From positions 1 through 64,000 of the forward strand of contig NZ_JABASR010000014.1 in NCBI RefSeq assembly GCF_016107525.1: a DNA stretch of 64,000 nucleotides, in the 5' to 3' direction. Shown piece by piece: positions 14,162 to 48,664 of this stretch. The notes beneath the pieces are model-generated. The model searched no databases. It was not told the origin of the DNA and saw nothing but the letters and a program-made list of their open reading frames with translations. The translations under genes were made by a program, and so were the position numbers. The stretch's first letter is position 1. Each line of letters opens with the position of its first letter. The DNA comes from Psychrobacter aquimaris (GTDB lineage: Bacteria; Pseudomonadota; Gammaproteobacteria; Pseudomonadales; Moraxellaceae).

Positions 14162-14361
14162 TTCGCACTCTTCGCTAATAGTAATCCTGCCTTCCTAATC
14201 TGAAAATAGTAAGATAGCCTATCTGATGTACAGAGCATACGTGTGCCTATGACTACGTTTTGTAATACAAAGCATACGCGTCAACGGTTGTGAATCCATT
14301 TAAGACTGGTAATATTAAGACTAATCGGAGATTGATAATAAAGACATTGGTTCTATTAAAG

Positions 14362-14481
14362 TTACTGACTTATAAATTACTGACTTATAAATTACTGACT
14401 TATAAATTACTGACTTATAAATTACTGACTTATAAATTACTGACTTATAAATTACTGACTTATAAATTACTGACTTATAAA
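14362..14481 (+). repeat. Eight perfect copies of a 15-bp tandem repeat
   Basis: Eight exact, uninterrupted copies of TTACTGACTTATAAA. Each contains a TATAAA element. The array ends 67 bases before the start of the small acidic protein gene. A chance open frame through it would encode LLTYK repeats, but it has no ribosome binding site. The whole gap 14162-14548 holds nothing else that I recognise. Confidence 0.97.
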
Positions 14482-14548
14482 TTATATACATCTAGATCGA
14501 ATGCATATAAATCGCATAATAATACTGACTGACTAAGGAGAGCACCTG

Positions 14549-18266: not shown

Positions 18267-18788
18267 TTAGCTCACCATATATTGACTAAACTCTTTACGC
18301 AATTTGGCAAGTTTTGGTGGTATGGCAAAGTTGCAATAAGCTTGTCCTGGGTTTCTATTGAAGAAATCTTGGTGGGTCTCTTCTGCTTGATAAAACTCAA
18401 CGGCTGGGTGTACTTCGGTGACCACATTGATGCCCATATCGCGCAGTTTATTGATGGTGCGGTCAATGGTCGGTTTTTGGGCTTCATCTGTGTAGAACAC
18501 AACGCTTCTATACTGGCTACCGACGTCATTGCCTTGACGATCCATTGTGGTGGGATCGTGGGTGGCAAAGAAAACATCCAGTATGACTTCTAATGGGACG
18601 ATAGAGTCATCGAACTCGACTTTGATGACTTCAACGTGCCCTGTATTGCCACTACAGACCGCTTCGTAATTGGCAGAAACAGCGTCACCGCCCATGTAGC
18701 CTGAGACGACAGATTGCACGCCTTTTACGGATAAAAATACCGATTCGGTGCACCAAAAACAGCCACCGCCTAAAATAATGGTTTGCAT
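18267..18788 (-). CDS. msrA: Peptide methionine-(S)-sulfoxide reductase
   Basis: Repairs oxidised methionine in proteins. The catalytic motif GGGCFWCTE places the nucleophile at C10. Other conserved blocks are SGYMGG (31-36), ATHDPTTMDRQGNDVGSQYRS (not listed in full) and a C-terminal PGQAYCNFAIPPKL. The length of 173 residues fits a single-domain cytosolic MsrA with no fused MsrB. AGGA upstream of the ATG supports the start. Confidence 0.95.
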   Translation of the reverse strand: MQTIILGGGCFWCTESVFLSVKGVQSVVSGYMGGDAVSANYEAVCSGNTGHVEVIKVEFDDSIVPLEVILDVFFATHDPTTMDRQGNDVGSQYRSVVFYTDEAQKPTIDRTINKLRDMGINVVTEVHPAVEFYQAEETHQDFFNRNPGQAYCNFAIPPKLAKLRKEFSQYMVS

Positions 18789-18991
18789 AATTCTTCCTGT
18801 TTTTATAAATATAAAATACCAGCCAAGTGATGTTTACTTAGCAATACCTATTTAGCTTAGCAGGGCATCTGACCGCGATAAGTAACAAACAGTAATGTTA
18901 TAATGAGCTTTTGCTACGTCGTGCCGCTTTCAGCTAGTAATGACAAGCAAGACCATCAATTATCTCCTAATTTAAGTTCTATTATCACAAA

Positions 18992-19780
18992 ATGAGTCGC
19001 ACCATGAGTCAATCTAAGCCTGCTATTGTTAAGCATGACACCTTATTTACCACGCCACTCGATAAAGCGTCGCGTTTCTCCTTTGATGAGCAAGTGGTGG
19101 CTTGTTTCCCTGATATGATTCGTCGTAGTGTTCCCGGTTATGGTCAGGTACTGGCGATGTTGCCCATATTTGCTCGACGTCATTGTAAGTATCGTCAACA
19201 GAGCGATAGTGGTCAGCGCGTCAGTCGAGTGTATGATTTGGGTTGTTCACTTGGCGCAGCAAGTATGGCGTTGGCGGGTGAGTTTGAGCCGCAAGATTTG
19301 CAAATTAAAGCGATTGATATCTCACCAGCGATGACGACCGAAGCGACTACTTTACTGGCTGATAACTATCCAGAGCATAATATTGAAGTCCTCACTGCGG
19401 ATATTCGTGATGTCGAGCTTGAGCCGTGCGATATGGTGATTTTAAACTTAACCTTACAGTTTTTACCCGCCGCCGATAGAGTCGCAGTGTTAGAGAAAAT
19501 TTATGCGGCATTAAGCGAAGGTGGCATACTGGTCTTGACTGAAAAAACCCATGCCTTTGATGAGCAATATGACGCGTGGTTGGTTGAGCGTTATTATGAC
19601 TTTAAACGTGCTAATGGGTATACCGAGATGGAAATCAGTGGCAAACGTAATGCATTAGAAAACGTTCTTATTACTGATACATTAGATGAGCATCATGCAC
19701 GGCTAGATCAAGTTGGCTTTAAACGTCATCTGACGTGGTTTCAGTTTTTAAACTTTGTCTCAATTGTGGTGTTTAAGTAG
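18992..19780 (+). CDS. cmoA: Carboxy-S-adenosyl-L-methionine synthase
   Basis: Makes carboxy-SAM from SAM and prephenate, the donor that CmoB uses to build 5-carboxymethoxyuridine at the tRNA wobble position. It has [22 protein letters not shown], the SAM motif [12 protein letters not shown] and NLTLQFLP, all typical of CmoA. ATG 19004 is an alternative start; neither has a strong ribosome binding site. cmoB normally lies next door but here begins 2.7 kb downstream, beyond an unrelated gene. Confidence 0.95.
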
Positions 19781-19852
19781 GGTTGTTTGAATAAACAATA
19801 GAAGCTGATCTTACTTTTATTGTGTTAATCTGAATAGATACTTATTTTATCG

Positions 19853-19872
19853 GTGCGCTTGGCTTGGCGCAC
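19853..19872 (+). other. Hairpin in the leader of the 795-residue gene
   Basis: Inverted arms GTGCGC/GCGCAC with an 8-base loop, without a T-run, 26 bases before the ATG of the nuclease-like gene. It could affect translation or mark old cmoA-cmoB spacer sequence. Confidence 0.4.
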
Positions 19873-19897
19873 TCTACTGGGTTACTGAGTTGAAACT

Positions 19898-22285
19898 ATG
19901 GATGAGATTCGATTAGATATTAAACTTAGACCTATAAGATTCTTATTTCTTGTAAAACCTAACGATAAGAAAAATCTAGAAAAAGTGTTTCAGATAAATA
20001 CGCTGTTATGGGGTGGAAAATATAATCCTATAGTTCCATATTTCAAAAGAGTACCTAAGTGGTGGGGAAGCGACCATAAGACATACAACGCAACGAAAAT
20101 ATTGAATGATTATCTTGACTTTTTTGAACCTGATTTTATTGTCGAAACAGAAGAAGGTATGACAAAAGACTTTGTTTTTGATAAAGAAAGGGTTTTACAA
20201 ATTGATGATTTGCTTAGTGTTGATGAACACGGATTAGATGATAAGTATGGGCTTACAGTATATGACTTATACGTAGATCTTTACGAAAAGAAGTATCAGT
20301 TCGAAAGACGTCATAAAGTAAATATTGTAAATGTCACTTCAGAGAATAAGAAGAATCAATTATTTACATCTTGTATTTTCGGTTCATTTAGCAAGTCACC
20401 TGAATTATCTTATTTCGAAGAAGGTTTTATAGATGTTTTTGATCCGAAAAAAGTAGAGCTGAATGATATTTCATTAATAGAACTATATCAGGGCAGTAAC
20501 CTTTCACCACTTGATGCCACTCATGCAGATATAGATATTCAATATCATCAATCATCGCCTGATGCAAGATTATTCATATTTGACTTAGAAGCTCCTAGAG
20601 ATCTAATCGATTATTGGAACTTACGTATTATCTATAAGAATATTGTTGCTATACCTATGCAGTGGATAGCAGAGCTAGCAGACTTCTGTAATGAGTTCAT
20701 ATCTGATAACTATCGTGCGCGTCCGCATCAAGAAGAATACTTTTTCAGAACAACTATCATGTTCTCTCGTTCCATTTCCGAAGATAAAGGTAGTGAAATT
20801 TATAACAAATATCTATCTGGTAACGAGAATAAGACCTTACTACAGTTTTGGTATCCAGATATTAGAGTTGATAAATCTGACAATCCTATGGATTTACAAA
20901 GGTCGATATTAACGTGCGAGCAAGTTAATAGAGATATTGCTTTAACATATGAGTATGAGAAGCCACAAATTCAATTTGATACGATAGCTCCTGATTTCAT
21001 AAAGAAAAAATATCATCATAAGCCGCTTTGGGCAAACGTGATAAATATTAAAGACTGGGGAAATCAAAGTCGGACTCTGACATGCTTTCCTACTAATTAC
21101 AGAAACCCTGTTTTTCCAAAATTTAATTATCATAGAGATTTCTTACTTCCTACAACTGAAGGCTTAACTATATTTCCTAAAAGTATTAATCGACAATATT
21201 GGAATTTACATAATGGTACAGAAGCTATTAACCAATGGTTAAGTAAATATGAGATTAAAGCAACTGTATCCGATGCTGGAAAATCCGTTCAACAAATCAT
21301 TGAAACAATTGGTGGTGTTCCTCAGTTATCTAGTTTGGCAAATAAAAATATTGTTGAACGACTCAATGATATGGCCAATAAACCGTTGACGAGGAGCATG
21401 CATGCGGAAGAATTTAAAAATAGGATTAATACGAAAAATAATAAAAAGCCAGCAAGTCGACTGGTTTCGCAAAAAATTGTACAGCTTGGTTTAGAGTTAA
21501 AATGTTCTAAATGTGATAGTTGGAATTGGTACGAGATCAATAACTTAAATTATGAACTATCATGTAACAGATGCTTGAAGTTTTTCAATTTTCCTATTTT
21601 GGATCCTTCTAATTCAAGCTTATCAAGATGGTCATATAGAGTGGTTGGTGCTTTTGCTTTACCTGATTATGCCAGAGGTGGATATGCTGCTTCATTAGCG
21701 ATTCATTTTTTCGTTAGAAAGGTTAGCTATTCTCATAGGCTTAATATTACATGGTCTAGTGGACAAGAACTAACGCTTCAGTCTGGAGAAAAAGCAGAAG
21801 CCGATTTTATCTTATGGGCACAAAGAGAAGGAATTGTAGGTTTAAATAAACCTACTAATATTGTTTTTGGAGAGGCAAAGAGCTTTGCAAAAGACGCCTT
21901 TAAAGATTCTGATATTCAAAAAATGAAACTTCTAGCAGAAACATTTCCTAAGCCAATTTTGGTTTTTGCAACGATGAAAAATTTTGACGAGTTTTCGGTG
22001 GATGAAGTTCAGCGATTAAGGAAGTTAGCTGACTGGGGACGTGGTTATGATAATAAAAATAAAGAAGTTAGAGCCTACGTCATGATTTTAACTGGTTTAG
22101 AGTTGTTTATGGATGGTTATGGAAGTCTTTCAAACGTATGGGAAGATAAGGGTGGAAAACATGCAGAACTTGCAAAAACAAGAAGAATGGATATTGATAA
22201 CTTAATTTTGTTAGCAGAAGCTACTCAAGAATTGTATTTGAATATGCCTTCTTATCATGAAGGACTTTACAATATTAAGCTATAA
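19898..22285 (+). CDS. Large zinc-ribbon and PD-(D/E)XK nuclease-like protein, candidate defence gene
   Basis: No named family recognised for the 795-residue whole. The N-terminus (about 9-50) has LRPIRFLFLV and LLWGGKYNPIVPYF, which looks like a conserved family signature. The middle is unassigned. A zinc ribbon follows: C536-x2-C539...C556-x2-C559. The C-terminal part fits a restriction-endonuclease fold: D636 in AEADFILW, then E659-A-K661 in VFGEAKS, a D-x22-E-x-K arrangement, followed by a helix and ILVFAT. Base use is AT-rich, with frequent AGA and ATA codons unlike the flanking cmo genes. It sits alone between cmoA and cmoB in the same direction. A DNA-targeting defence role is inferred, not shown. 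Confidence 0.72.
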   Translation: MDEIRLDIKLRPIRFLFLVKPNDKKNLEKVFQINTLLWGGKYNPIVPYFKRVPKWWGSDHKTYNATKILNDYLDFFEPDFIVETEEGMTKDFVFDKERVLQIDDLLSVDEHGLDDKYGLTVYDLYVDLYEKKYQFERRHKVNIVNVTSENKKNQLFTSCIFGSFSKSPELSYFEEGFIDVFDPKKVELNDISLIELYQGSNLSPLDATHADIDIQYHQSSPDARLFIFDLEAPRDLIDYWNLRIIYKNIVAIPMQWIAELADFCNEFISDNYRARPHQEEYFFRTTIMFSRSISEDKGSEIYNKYLSGNENKTLLQFWYPDIRVDKSDNPMDLQRSILTCEQVNRDIALTYEYEKPQIQFDTIAPDFIKKKYHHKPLWANVINIKDWGNQSRTLTCFPTNYRNPVFPKFNYHRDFLLPTTEGLTIFPKSINRQYWNLHNGTEAINQWLSKYEIKATVSDAGKSVQQIIETIGGVPQLSSLANKNIVERLNDMANKPLTRSMHAEEFKNRINTKNNKKPASRLVSQKIVQLGLELKCSKCDSWNWYEINNLNYELSCNRCLKFFNFPILDPSNSSLSRWSYRVVGAFALPDYARGGYAASLAIHFFVRKVSYSHRLNITWSSGQELTLQSGEKAEADFILWAQREGIVGLNKPTNIVFGEAKSFAKDAFKDSDIQKMKLLAETFPKPILVFATMKNFDEFSVDEVQRLRKLADWGRGYDNKNKEVRAYVMILTGLELFMDGYGSLSNVWEDKGGKHAELAKTRRMDIDNLILLAEATQELYLNMPSYHEGLYNIKL

Positions 22286-22479
22286 ATTAAGATCAGTTGC
22301 GCCATGGTTGATCTGACTCAGCAGGGGAAAAGGCGCCAATAAGGTTTTAAATAACATCGAGCAGCGCCACGCATATTTGCTCACCTTTAAAGCACTCCCA
22401 CCTTGAGGCTCATCCTCTTTTGTTCTAACTCTTTTAATTTTATTCATTTAAATAACAATCAATACGGTAACTTGCTTTT

Positions 22480-23529
22480 ATGCTCAACGACACTATTACT
22501 CACGCCGAACGCGAACTGTATTTAACTTTATTAGAGCTGGCTCAGCAGCAGCCGAGCGCTTACGAATGGCTGACGCGCTTACCAACATGGTTAAATGACA
22601 TCAAGGATAAAGCCAACTACGCGCATGCACCTGCTTATCAAGCGTCAGTCGCTCGTTTGCCAGAACTAACCGTCAATAACGTCGATCTGAACAGTGATGT
22701 CCTGACGATTGAGGCAAATCTTAGTGAGTCTCAGCGCAAACAAACAGTGGCATTATTAAAGCAGCTCATGCCGTGGCGCAAAGGGCCTTTTCAAATTGGT
22801 AGTGAAGAAGGCAATCCAATATTGATTGATACTGAATGGCACAGCGATTGGAAGTGGCAACGAGTCGCACCGCATTTGGGTAATTTAAAAGGTCGTCGCG
22901 TATTAGATGTGGGTGGTGGCTCTGGCTATCACGGCTGGCGTATGGCAGGGGCAGGAGCAGATACAGTCATTATCATTGATCCGTCATGCTTGTTTTATCA
23001 TCAGTTTATGGCGATTCGTCATTTTGTTGGCGCAGCAGACGCTCATACTCATGCTCATGGTACAGGCCGTTATCGTACTCATTATATTCCCGTGCCGCTT
23101 GAAGCATTGCCCGAGCATAGCCAATTATTTGACACCGTATTTAGCATGGGTGTGCTCTATCATCGCCAATCGCCGTTTGAGCATTTACAACAGCTTAAAG
23201 GGCAGTTGGTCAAAGGCGGTGAGTTGGTGCTTGAAACCTTGGTTATCGAAGGTGATGCCCATACGGTACTGGTGCCAAATGACCGCTATGCTCAGATGAA
23301 TAACGTGTATTTTTTACCATCAGTCGCGGCATTGACAGGCTGGCTAGAAAAAGCGGGATTCTCAGAGGTGCGTTGCGTGGATGTAGCAGTGACCTCGACG
23401 GAAGAGCAGCGTAAAACGGAATGGATGACTTATCATTCGTTAGCAGATTTTTTAGATCCTAATGACTCTAGCAAAACTCTTGAAGGCTATCCTGCTCCGA
23501 TGCGTGCGACCTTGATTGCCAAAAAATAG
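22480..23529 (+). CDS. cmoB: tRNA U34 carboxymethyltransferase
   Basis: Transfers the carboxymethyl group from carboxy-SAM to 5-hydroxyuridine 34 of tRNA. Matching features are GPFQIGSEEGNPILIDTEW (about 98-117 in pieces), the SAM motif RRVLDVGGGSGYHGWRM, and FDTVFSMGVLYHRQSPFEHL in part. 349 residues is a little longer than the E. coli enzyme. The ribosome binding site is weak. It lies 195 bases after the inserted nuclease-like gene. Confidence 0.95.
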   Translation: MLNDTITHAERELYLTLLELAQQQPSAYEWLTRLPTWLNDIKDKANYAHAPAYQASVARLPELTVNNVDLNSDVLTIEANLSESQRKQTVALLKQLMPWRKGPFQIGSEEGNPILIDTEWHSDWKWQRVAPHLGNLKGRRVLDVGGGSGYHGWRMAGAGADTVIIIDPSCLFYHQFMAIRHFVGAADAHTHAHGTGRYRTHYIPVPLEALPEHSQLFDTVFSMGVLYHRQSPFEHLQQLKGQLVKGGELVLETLVIEGDAHTVLVPNDRYAQMNNVYFLPSVAALTGWLEKAGFSEVRCVDVAVTSTEEQRKTEWMTYHSLADFLDPNDSSKTLEGYPAPMRATLIAKK

Positions 23530-23563
23530 CGTTATTACTTTATTACCATAAGGAACATGGATA

Positions 23564-24682
23564 ATGAAAATATCAAAGACTGTGATTATGACTACTATTA
23601 GCTTGTTATCGCTACCTGCTATGGCAAGTTACGGTACGCCATTTGAGGGTTGGGGCTTTGTGCAGGATGATTGGCAAGTGGTTTGTGATAATACCCTGAC
23701 TTGTCGAGCAGCAGGTTATGCAGAGGAGGATCAGTTTGATACGCCTGCCTCAATATTGCTAACAGCATTACCTAAAGTTTCTTTACCAAGTGCCACAGTA
23801 CAGTTTTTACCAGAGGTTCCAAAGCAGAATAATACCGAGGCTGAGCTTTGGTTAAATGGTAAGAACTATGGCGAGATACAGCCAGATGCGGACGGTTACG
23901 TCTATGATTTAAGTCCTCAGCAAACCAAGTACCTGATTAATCAAGCACGCCTAAATACGAATATAGAGATAAGAGTAGGCAGTGAGCGTTGGACAATCAG
24001 CGATAAAGGCATGAGTGCGGTATTGCTCAAGCTCGATGATGCACAAGGTCGTGTAGGGACACCGTTGGCACTGGTTAGTAAGAGCAGCCCACATCAGCAG
24101 ACACCCAAATCCGCTAAAGCGAAACCTGTGATTAAAAAAGTATATGCCTATGCTGACAACAAGCAACTGGACTCGTCAAAGCTAGTATATTTTCAAAAGA
24201 ATATAAATAAGTGGGTCGATATTGACGCTAAGCAACTTGTAGGCTCTGAAGATGATATGGGAGATTGTGAGTTGGTTAATCCAAAAACTGAAGCGTACCA
24301 ACGAATGCAAGAGTATGGTGCTGGTAGATTAGGTTGGGAATTTACAGCCGTGGATGCCAAGCATACGCTTGCTAGCCATCTATGCTGGCAAGGAGCCTAT
24401 AACGAAGGTTATGGTTATTGGCTGATAAATCATCGTACTCCAAGCGAGACAGTACTTATCACCACAGCAGGCAGTGAATATTCTGATGGAGAGATTTGGG
24501 CGATGCATAAAGATCGAGGCGTTGGTGATTGCTGGAGTCGTGCGATATGGATTTGGAATGGTAAAACGTTTGCTAAGAGCGAAGAGGTAACGACGGGCAT
24601 GTGCCGAGGTTTTGCTGGTGGGGCATGGGACTTACCAACTTACGTGAGTGCAGTCGTAAAAAATGATAGCAAGGCTCAGTGA
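23564..24682 (+). CDS. DUF1176 domain secreted protein
   Basis: Exported protein of 372 residues with a signal peptide (about 1-21, ending AMA). The DUF1176 family is recognised from DDWQVVCDNTLTCRAAGY near residue 29, WTISDKGMSAVLLKLDDAQGR around 144-162, and the C-terminal GVGDCWSRAIWIWNG with MCRGFAGGAWDLP. Paired cysteines (C41/C47 and C-terminal ones) suggest disulphides. The function of the family is not known. AAGGA upstream supports the start. It follows cmoB by 34 bases, so read-through is possible. Confidence 0.85.
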   Translation: MKISKTVIMTTISLLSLPAMASYGTPFEGWGFVQDDWQVVCDNTLTCRAAGYAEEDQFDTPASILLTALPKVSLPSATVQFLPEVPKQNNTEAELWLNGKNYGEIQPDADGYVYDLSPQQTKYLINQARLNTNIEIRVGSERWTISDKGMSAVLLKLDDAQGRVGTPLALVSKSSPHQQTPKSAKAKPVIKKVYAYADNKQLDSSKLVYFQKNINKWVDIDAKQLVGSEDDMGDCELVNPKTEAYQRMQEYGAGRLGWEFTAVDAKHTLASHLCWQGAYNEGYGYWLINHRTPSETVLITTAGSEYSDGEIWAMHKDRGVGDCWSRAIWIWNGKTFAKSEEVTTGMCRGFAGGAWDLPTYVSAVVKNDSKAQ

Positions 24683-48471: not shown

Positions 48472-48664
48472 AATCAATGAACATTTAAATGGGCTAAAAA
48501 TGGCTAAAAATGGCTAAAAATGGCTAAAAATGGCTAAAAATGGCTAAATTTTGTCAAACATCGTCAAATAGCTTGGTCATCTCACGATATTAACGGCGCT
48601 ATTTTCCTTGCTTAACTGCAATTTATCTCATTTTTATCACCATTTTTAAAATGAGGACACGCCC
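48455..48664. mobile_element. MITE-like element, copy A (210 bp) with internal 10-bp repeats
   Basis: Non-coding element flanked by TA on both sides (48453-48454 and 48665-48666). The ends are GGGCATGT... and, inverted, GGGCGTGTCC..., so the outermost bases are inverted repeats. It matches copy B at 25382-25540 except for the extra tandem repeats. The TA flanks and GGGC-TGT ends suggest mobilisation by a transposase encoded elsewhere; none is in the window. Confidence 0.75.
48492..48541 (+). repeat. Five perfect copies of a 10-bp repeat (GGCTAAAAAT)
   Basis: Five contiguous exact units, then a partial sixth (GGCTAAA). Copy B of the element has only one related unit at this place. Confidence 0.95.

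Follow-up and report, generated by a model that had tools for sequence, protein, structure and literature searches.

A candidate stand-alone defence nuclease between cmoA and cmoB in Psychrobacter aquimaris

Proteins of the Card1/Can2 type, which join a sensor to a nuclease in one chain, are known as effectors of type III CRISPR systems and depend on a second messenger synthesised in trans. Here we describe a gene for a 795-amino-acid (aa) protein whose back half is predicted to share their nuclease fold, found in a 64,000-nucleotide stretch of Psychrobacter aquimaris DNA (assembly GCF_016107525.1, contig NZ_JABASR010000014.1, positions 1 to 64,000; hereafter the window). The gene occupies positions 19898..22285 on the + strand as an open reading frame (ORF) of 795 codons with an ATG start, and lies between cmoA and cmoB. 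We favour, at a probability of roughly 0.6, the reading that it is a stand-alone gene for defence, acquired horizontally and now the cargo of a variable slot, and that it encodes a nuclease which senses infection. It is likely to be an antiviral system of a single gene, as yet unnamed, with the defence reading drawn from genomic context. In one respect the finding is ordinary, a further mobile candidate for defence whose nuclease is of the PD-(D/E)XK type; in another it is unusual, a widespread one-gene family in which a back half shaped like that of Card1 is joined to a zinc ribbon and to a front domain that was placed in no family.

Protein architecture and the Card1-type nucleases

The predicted back half of the protein matches the structures of Cdn1, Card1 and Can2, all activated by cyclic tetra-adenylate (cA4), and when the whole protein was searched with Foldseek, Can2 ranked first with an E value of 2e-3 but a template modelling (TM) score of 0.15. 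The likeness to this group (Card1, Can2, Cdn1 and VC1899; DUF1887, PF09002) lies in a predicted nuclease domain of the Card1/Can2 fold. The differences are that the protein has 795 aa, as against about 340-440 aa in the matched chains, that it carries an inserted zinc ribbon, and that its N-terminal domain, roughly double the Can2 CARF domain in size, was not clearly recognised as CARF. The Can2 CARF domain spans residues 3-151, and E276/D278 of Can2 can be set beside our E634/D636 (PMC7969007), while E308/E310 and E323/K325 of Cdn1 can be set beside E634/D636 and E659/K661, respectively (PMC12825302). PF09002 had no match in the genome that carries the gene. A sequence link to Card1 was also sought with hhalign and set aside: residues 420-795, 570-795, 1-330 and 1-440 and the whole protein, compared with eight Card1-family ORFs, gave a probability of at most about 0.2, as did two deeper C-terminal profiles that included a second clade of relatives (see below), compared with seven such ORFs; for one of these deeper profiles the reversed control scored 0.14 against 0.15. 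Of nine Card1 loci, L127 yielded no ORF, and L133, taken on the wrong strand among the eight, is not one of the seven. Because of these low probabilities, the likeness to Card1 is one of fold only.

A search for relatives returned 344 proteins at E <= 0.001, of which the best 120 were used, and a second search added 39. Together with the query these made a set of 160, and conservation was counted over the 157 proteins of at least 740 aa (the window's own and 156 others). Since 118 of the 120 relatives listed cover at least 91% of its length, the protein is one unit. The C-terminal half is predicted, from fold and motif, to be a zinc ribbon plus an active PD-(D/E)XK nuclease. The initial annotation had proposed both elements, and both are present at the residues it named: the modelled ribbon (residues 528-565, 21479..21592, + strand) holds C536 (155/157), C539 (156/157), C556 and C559 (both 157/157), and the D636-x22-E659-x-K661 pattern lies in a core (residues 576-731, 21623..22090, + strand) whose modelled order of elements, helix-strand-strand-strand-helix-strand at residues 595-731, is backed by the structural matches. 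Structure prediction thus did return the restriction-endonuclease core that had been proposed. The putative metal ligands of E634-A-D636 (21797..21805, + strand) are invariant in all 157 proteins; in E659-A-K661 (21872..21880, + strand), a proposed metal ligand followed by the candidate catalytic lysine, E659 is found in 156 and K661 in all 157. As the ribbon cysteines and the D/E/K motif are near-invariant across so many full-length proteins, neither is a chance pattern.

Ahead of the ribbon, a helical segment (residues 440-510, 21215..21427, + strand; seen in the model and alignments) carries an S458-D-x-G461 motif, lies within the stretch aligned to Card1/Can2-type nuclease domains, and may have winged-helix character. 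It is preceded by a beta-rich middle part (residues 335-436, 20900..21205, + strand), assigned from predicted secondary structure. The N-terminal alpha/beta domain (residues 1-325, 19898..20872, + strand), our proposed sensor, was modelled alone with a predicted local distance difference test score (pLDDT) of 85.3 and a predicted TM score (pTM) of 0.87. Within it stands the WGGKYNPIVP block (W38-P47, 20009..20038, + strand), to which no name had been given; G39, G40, N43 and P47 are invariant (157/157). With the block begins a domain of alpha/beta type, some 320 residues long and conserved, which is shared with the second clade and is still without a confident known fold. Its weak structural likeness is to a Rossmann-type ligand binder.

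No family in Pfam-A, NCBIfam or PADLOC-DB 2.0.0 matched the protein at E <= 1, and the single PHROGs match had an E value of 0.14. Sequence searches of solved structures gave nothing useful for the protein, for the full or C-terminal profiles, or for a profile of the second clade, and a viral structure library gave no match at E <= 0.001. No prior description of such a family was found at the level of titles and abstracts, with preprints and most subscription journals outside the coverage. The one-gene family is therefore undescribed by the literature searches made, and unnamed in Pfam, NCBIfam and PADLOC.

A cargo slot between cmoA and cmoB

The initial annotation described a lone AT-rich gene between cmoA and cmoB, and each part of this description was borne out. 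The ORF on the left (18992..19780, + strand) has tRNA (cmo5U34)-methyltransferase as its top solved-structure match (E 1.5e-60), and that on the right (22480..23529, + strand) has tRNA (mo5U34)-methyltransferase (E 6.4e-102). The G+C fraction (GC) of the gene is 0.332, and 0.254 at third codon positions (GC3), as against 0.427-0.484 and 0.366-0.483 in nine other genes of the window, so that its composition is abnormal for its surroundings. It is flanked by a left arm of 117 bp (19781..19897) and a right arm of 194 bp (22286..22479), and is present in a single copy in its genome. No integrase or transposase gene was found among the ORFs of the insert, no tRNA was found within the window as an attachment site, and an Rfam scan of 18500-24000 gave no match reaching the gathering score.

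One hundred Psychrobacter genomes were drawn, of which 93 are 90% complete or more. The gene was found in two, the present genome (G000) and G095, both times between cmoA and cmoB. It was not found in the other 98, which, with its abnormal composition, runs counter to the refuting condition set for the initial proposal (presence in all relatives with normal base composition). Comparison of the gap across the genus, which had been suggested as a check, was made in 80 of these genomes. The slot is empty in 57 (gap 49-205 bp) and filled in 23 (gap 665-11878 bp), two of them with the 795-aa gene. Its other occupants include a type VI retron (L112, in G074; reverse transcriptase E 9e-77, helix-turn-helix protein E 2.4e-35), a PDC-S20 protein (E 4.8e-175) that we take to be a KAP-type NTPase, with a similar gene in one further genome and a split gene of the kind in another (both by eye), and a protein, presumably of the DUF262 kind, that matches the PADLOC models for Orf5, HEC-06 and type IV restriction. 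One gap holds a PAAR protein (Pfam E 1.6e-23). Another (L106, in G011) holds a three-gene cargo of 357, 149 and 231 aa, in which PADLOC matched none of the three products and Pfam neither the first nor the third; by eye, the 231-aa product resembles a nuclease. The commonest cargo, an ORF of 170-193 aa, is found in 13 gaps (L114-L119, L067, L071, L076, L093, L096, L105 and L109) and is the same protein by eye where compared; one copy scanned with PADLOC and one with Pfam had no match. In L109 (the 11.9-kb gap of G034) there are four proteins of 519-536 aa in tandem, which look alike; the same gap holds a protein like DUF262 and, at 188 aa, one like CobU (by eye). The cmoA-cmoB gap is thus a cargo slot of the defence-hotspot type, variable and with other occupants that are partly antiviral.

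Of the 22 other filled slots, 18 have a match to the right arm and four have none. The match is complete in G095; in nine slots with other cargo the centre of the arm is matched (70-82% identity over 83-145 bp), and in eight further slots only the 61-74 bp adjoining cmoB. The left arm matches three of the 22. Cargo may be exchanged via recombination in these shared flanks. G022 also has a stretch similar to the right arm at a place (L139) that does not adjoin cmoB. Elsewhere in the window are two tandem arrays, TAAATTACTGACTTA in 8.5 copies at 14357-14484 and AAATGGCTAA in 6.1 copies at 48487-48548.

Distribution, neighbourhoods and a second clade

By record title, the relatives span several phyla. 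A tree built from 33 proteins groups the Psychrobacter copies with those of Aliarcobacter and Sulfuricurvum (support 100/100), apart from Enterobacteriaceae, and a wider group (85/92) takes in Legionella, one gammaproteobacterial metagenome-assembled genome and a Photobacterium plasmid copy, the tree program flagging unlike composition for several rows of these groups. Relatives are carried by a single plasmid record and a single IMG/VR contig; none matched in phage records, and a second scan of viral contigs with the C-terminal part returned only the contig of the first scan. E. coli genomes gave no match to the DNA of the Citrobacter or RIT714 gene, with a distant E. coli homologue still possible. 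Copies in G133, L010 and L027 are fragmented or split. Between the two Psychrobacter copies the ratio of nonsynonymous to synonymous change (dN/dS) is 0.30 by a simple count. The gene carries signs of horizontal transfer.

The neighbourhoods of relatives were laid out for 20 loci (18 of the 28 relatives' loci, plus L121 and L125). In at least eight of the 20, restriction, abortive-infection or nuclease genes lie no more than three ORFs away. For ten of these loci, 20 neighbour proteins in all were scanned with Pfam; they were picked by look and are therefore no blind sample. Pfam identified HsdM in Citrobacter, HsdS and HsdR at one Poribacteria locus, HsdS and an AAA_15/AbiEii-like ATPase at another, McrBC in Enterobacteriaceae RIT714, the HsdR C-terminus, Ymh and Schlafen AlbA_2 in a planctomycete, YhcG in a gammaproteobacterium, a methylase and ResIII in Gallionellaceae, and AbiU2 in Dyella; the Legionella locus has an integrase neighbour, and two Duganella neighbour proteins had no Pfam match. 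A rough control at E <= 1e-10 gave matches to 263 PADLOC models for 106 of 115 close neighbours, as against 53 models for 106 of 156 ORFs lying farther off in the same loci, a comparison that shows direction and not rate, the models overlapping heavily and the farther set having somewhat fewer residues (35,524), including L023 ORFs absent from the close set and itself containing restriction genes. Some PADLOC systems thus adjoin relatives or occupy the same slot, while the protein itself matches no PADLOC model. The proposal of a stand-alone defence gene, already made in the initial annotation, is strengthened by these neighbourhoods and by some of the other cargo in the slot.

When 398 genomes of the phylum were searched with the C-terminal part, four had matches, namely the present genome, G632 with a long relative, and two with distant proteins. 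One of the latter (L145, 865 aa) has relatives on plasmids of Burkholderia glumae (27%) and Piscirickettsia (23.5%). These three proteins, all from Pseudomonadota, the sole phylum searched for them, form a second clade that aligns with the first over 631 columns at a probability of 97. By eye, both clades share the GG...P block, FEPD-type and WN motifs, SDxG, the zinc ribbon and ExD...ExK, with T replacing the ExK lysine in the 865-aa protein. Since the second deep clade aligns across it, the whole architecture is old. Two observations concern the surroundings of this clade: a 1226-aa gene (L145, 530-4210), 10 bp upstream of the 865-aa relative, is a possible partner and has a weak AAA_16 match below the cut-off (E 0.0011), and on the B. 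glumae plasmid (L149) the relative comes after a run of three genes annotated as tyrosine recombinases and one small gene. We put forward, more tentatively than the defence reading and as less likely than not, that these proteins may constitute a new superfamily, a CRISPR-independent, Card1-shaped nuclease with its own N-terminal sensor, unrelated to CARF or SAVED, that would itself detect an infection signal and switch the nuclease on. It would comprise at least two deep clades, of which the first occurs in some six phyla, both on plasmids and within defence islands.

Mode of action and alternative explanations

In the mechanism we propose, residues 1-325 would bind an infection signal, and the middle part and helical segment would relay the resulting change to the zinc-ribbon and PD-(D/E)XK part. 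The nuclease half, built like that of Card1, Can2 and Cdn1, would then cut phage DNA, probably host DNA and perhaps RNA. Autoinhibition before the signal and a dimeric state may also be part of the mechanism.

The alternative that survives best, which we nevertheless regard as unlikely, is a self-contained restriction enzyme in which everything ahead of the nuclease (N-terminal domain, middle part, zinc ribbon) would read DNA directly, recognising either a sequence or a base modification in type II or type IV style, and the nuclease would cut that DNA, no signal molecule being involved. The protein would share its PD-(D/E)XK core with restriction enzymes such as EcoT38I and MspJI, but Pfam finds no DNA-reading domain in it, nor any other, and it matched no solved structure by sequence. 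Furthermore, the Psychrobacter slot holds no methyltransferase gene (relatives' loci were surveyed in part), and the N-terminal domain is, weakly, more like a ligand binder.

Far less probable is an effector that, like Card1, is activated by cyclic oligonucleotides from a type III CRISPR system or a synthase elsewhere in the genome resembling that of a cyclic-oligonucleotide-based anti-phage signalling system (CBASS). The structural matches to the cA4-activated proteins, with Can2 in first rank, speak for such activation, as does a SMODS-type nucleotidyltransferase in the own genome (G000:C36:166844-167173, L157; E 3.6e-9), possibly from a CBASS. However, SMODS was found in this one of ten carriers only, the N-terminal domain was not clearly recognised as CARF, and, in contrast to type III CRISPR effectors, neither Psychrobacter carrier has a match to the Cas10 palm (PF22335). 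That model did match in seven of the ten carriers, all among the eight others; four of these matches are above the cut-off, and because their loci contain GGDEF or GGEEF and E. coli also matches in a control, we take them for diguanylate cyclases. From the distribution of both families, a cyclic nucleotide made by these two kinds of synthase is not a general requirement.

Similarly improbable is a role in mobility rather than defence, as a TnsA-like or transposon-borne endonuclease: among the relatives surveyed for them, integrases adjoin those of L005, L007 and L026, and recombinases precede the B. glumae copy, but the Psychrobacter insert has no transposase or integrase gene and recognised defence genes also enter the slot. 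Equally improbable is a mobile nuclease whose role, in host control or otherwise, lies outside defence, for which the coverage of ten of 20 loci by the neighbour scans leaves some room, and against which stand the gene's rarity in congeners, its split copies and its spread over several phyla, all of which fit an accessory gene.

If the defence reading is true, a self-sufficient Card1-type protein on a single mobile gene would show such effectors working outside CRISPR, and would provide a compact, switchable nuclease. The locus offers a concrete test case, with one gene, a defined predicted active site and, in 57 of the 80 related genomes examined, a site that is naturally empty, and the cmoA-cmoB slot is a place in which to seek further defence genes of Psychrobacter.
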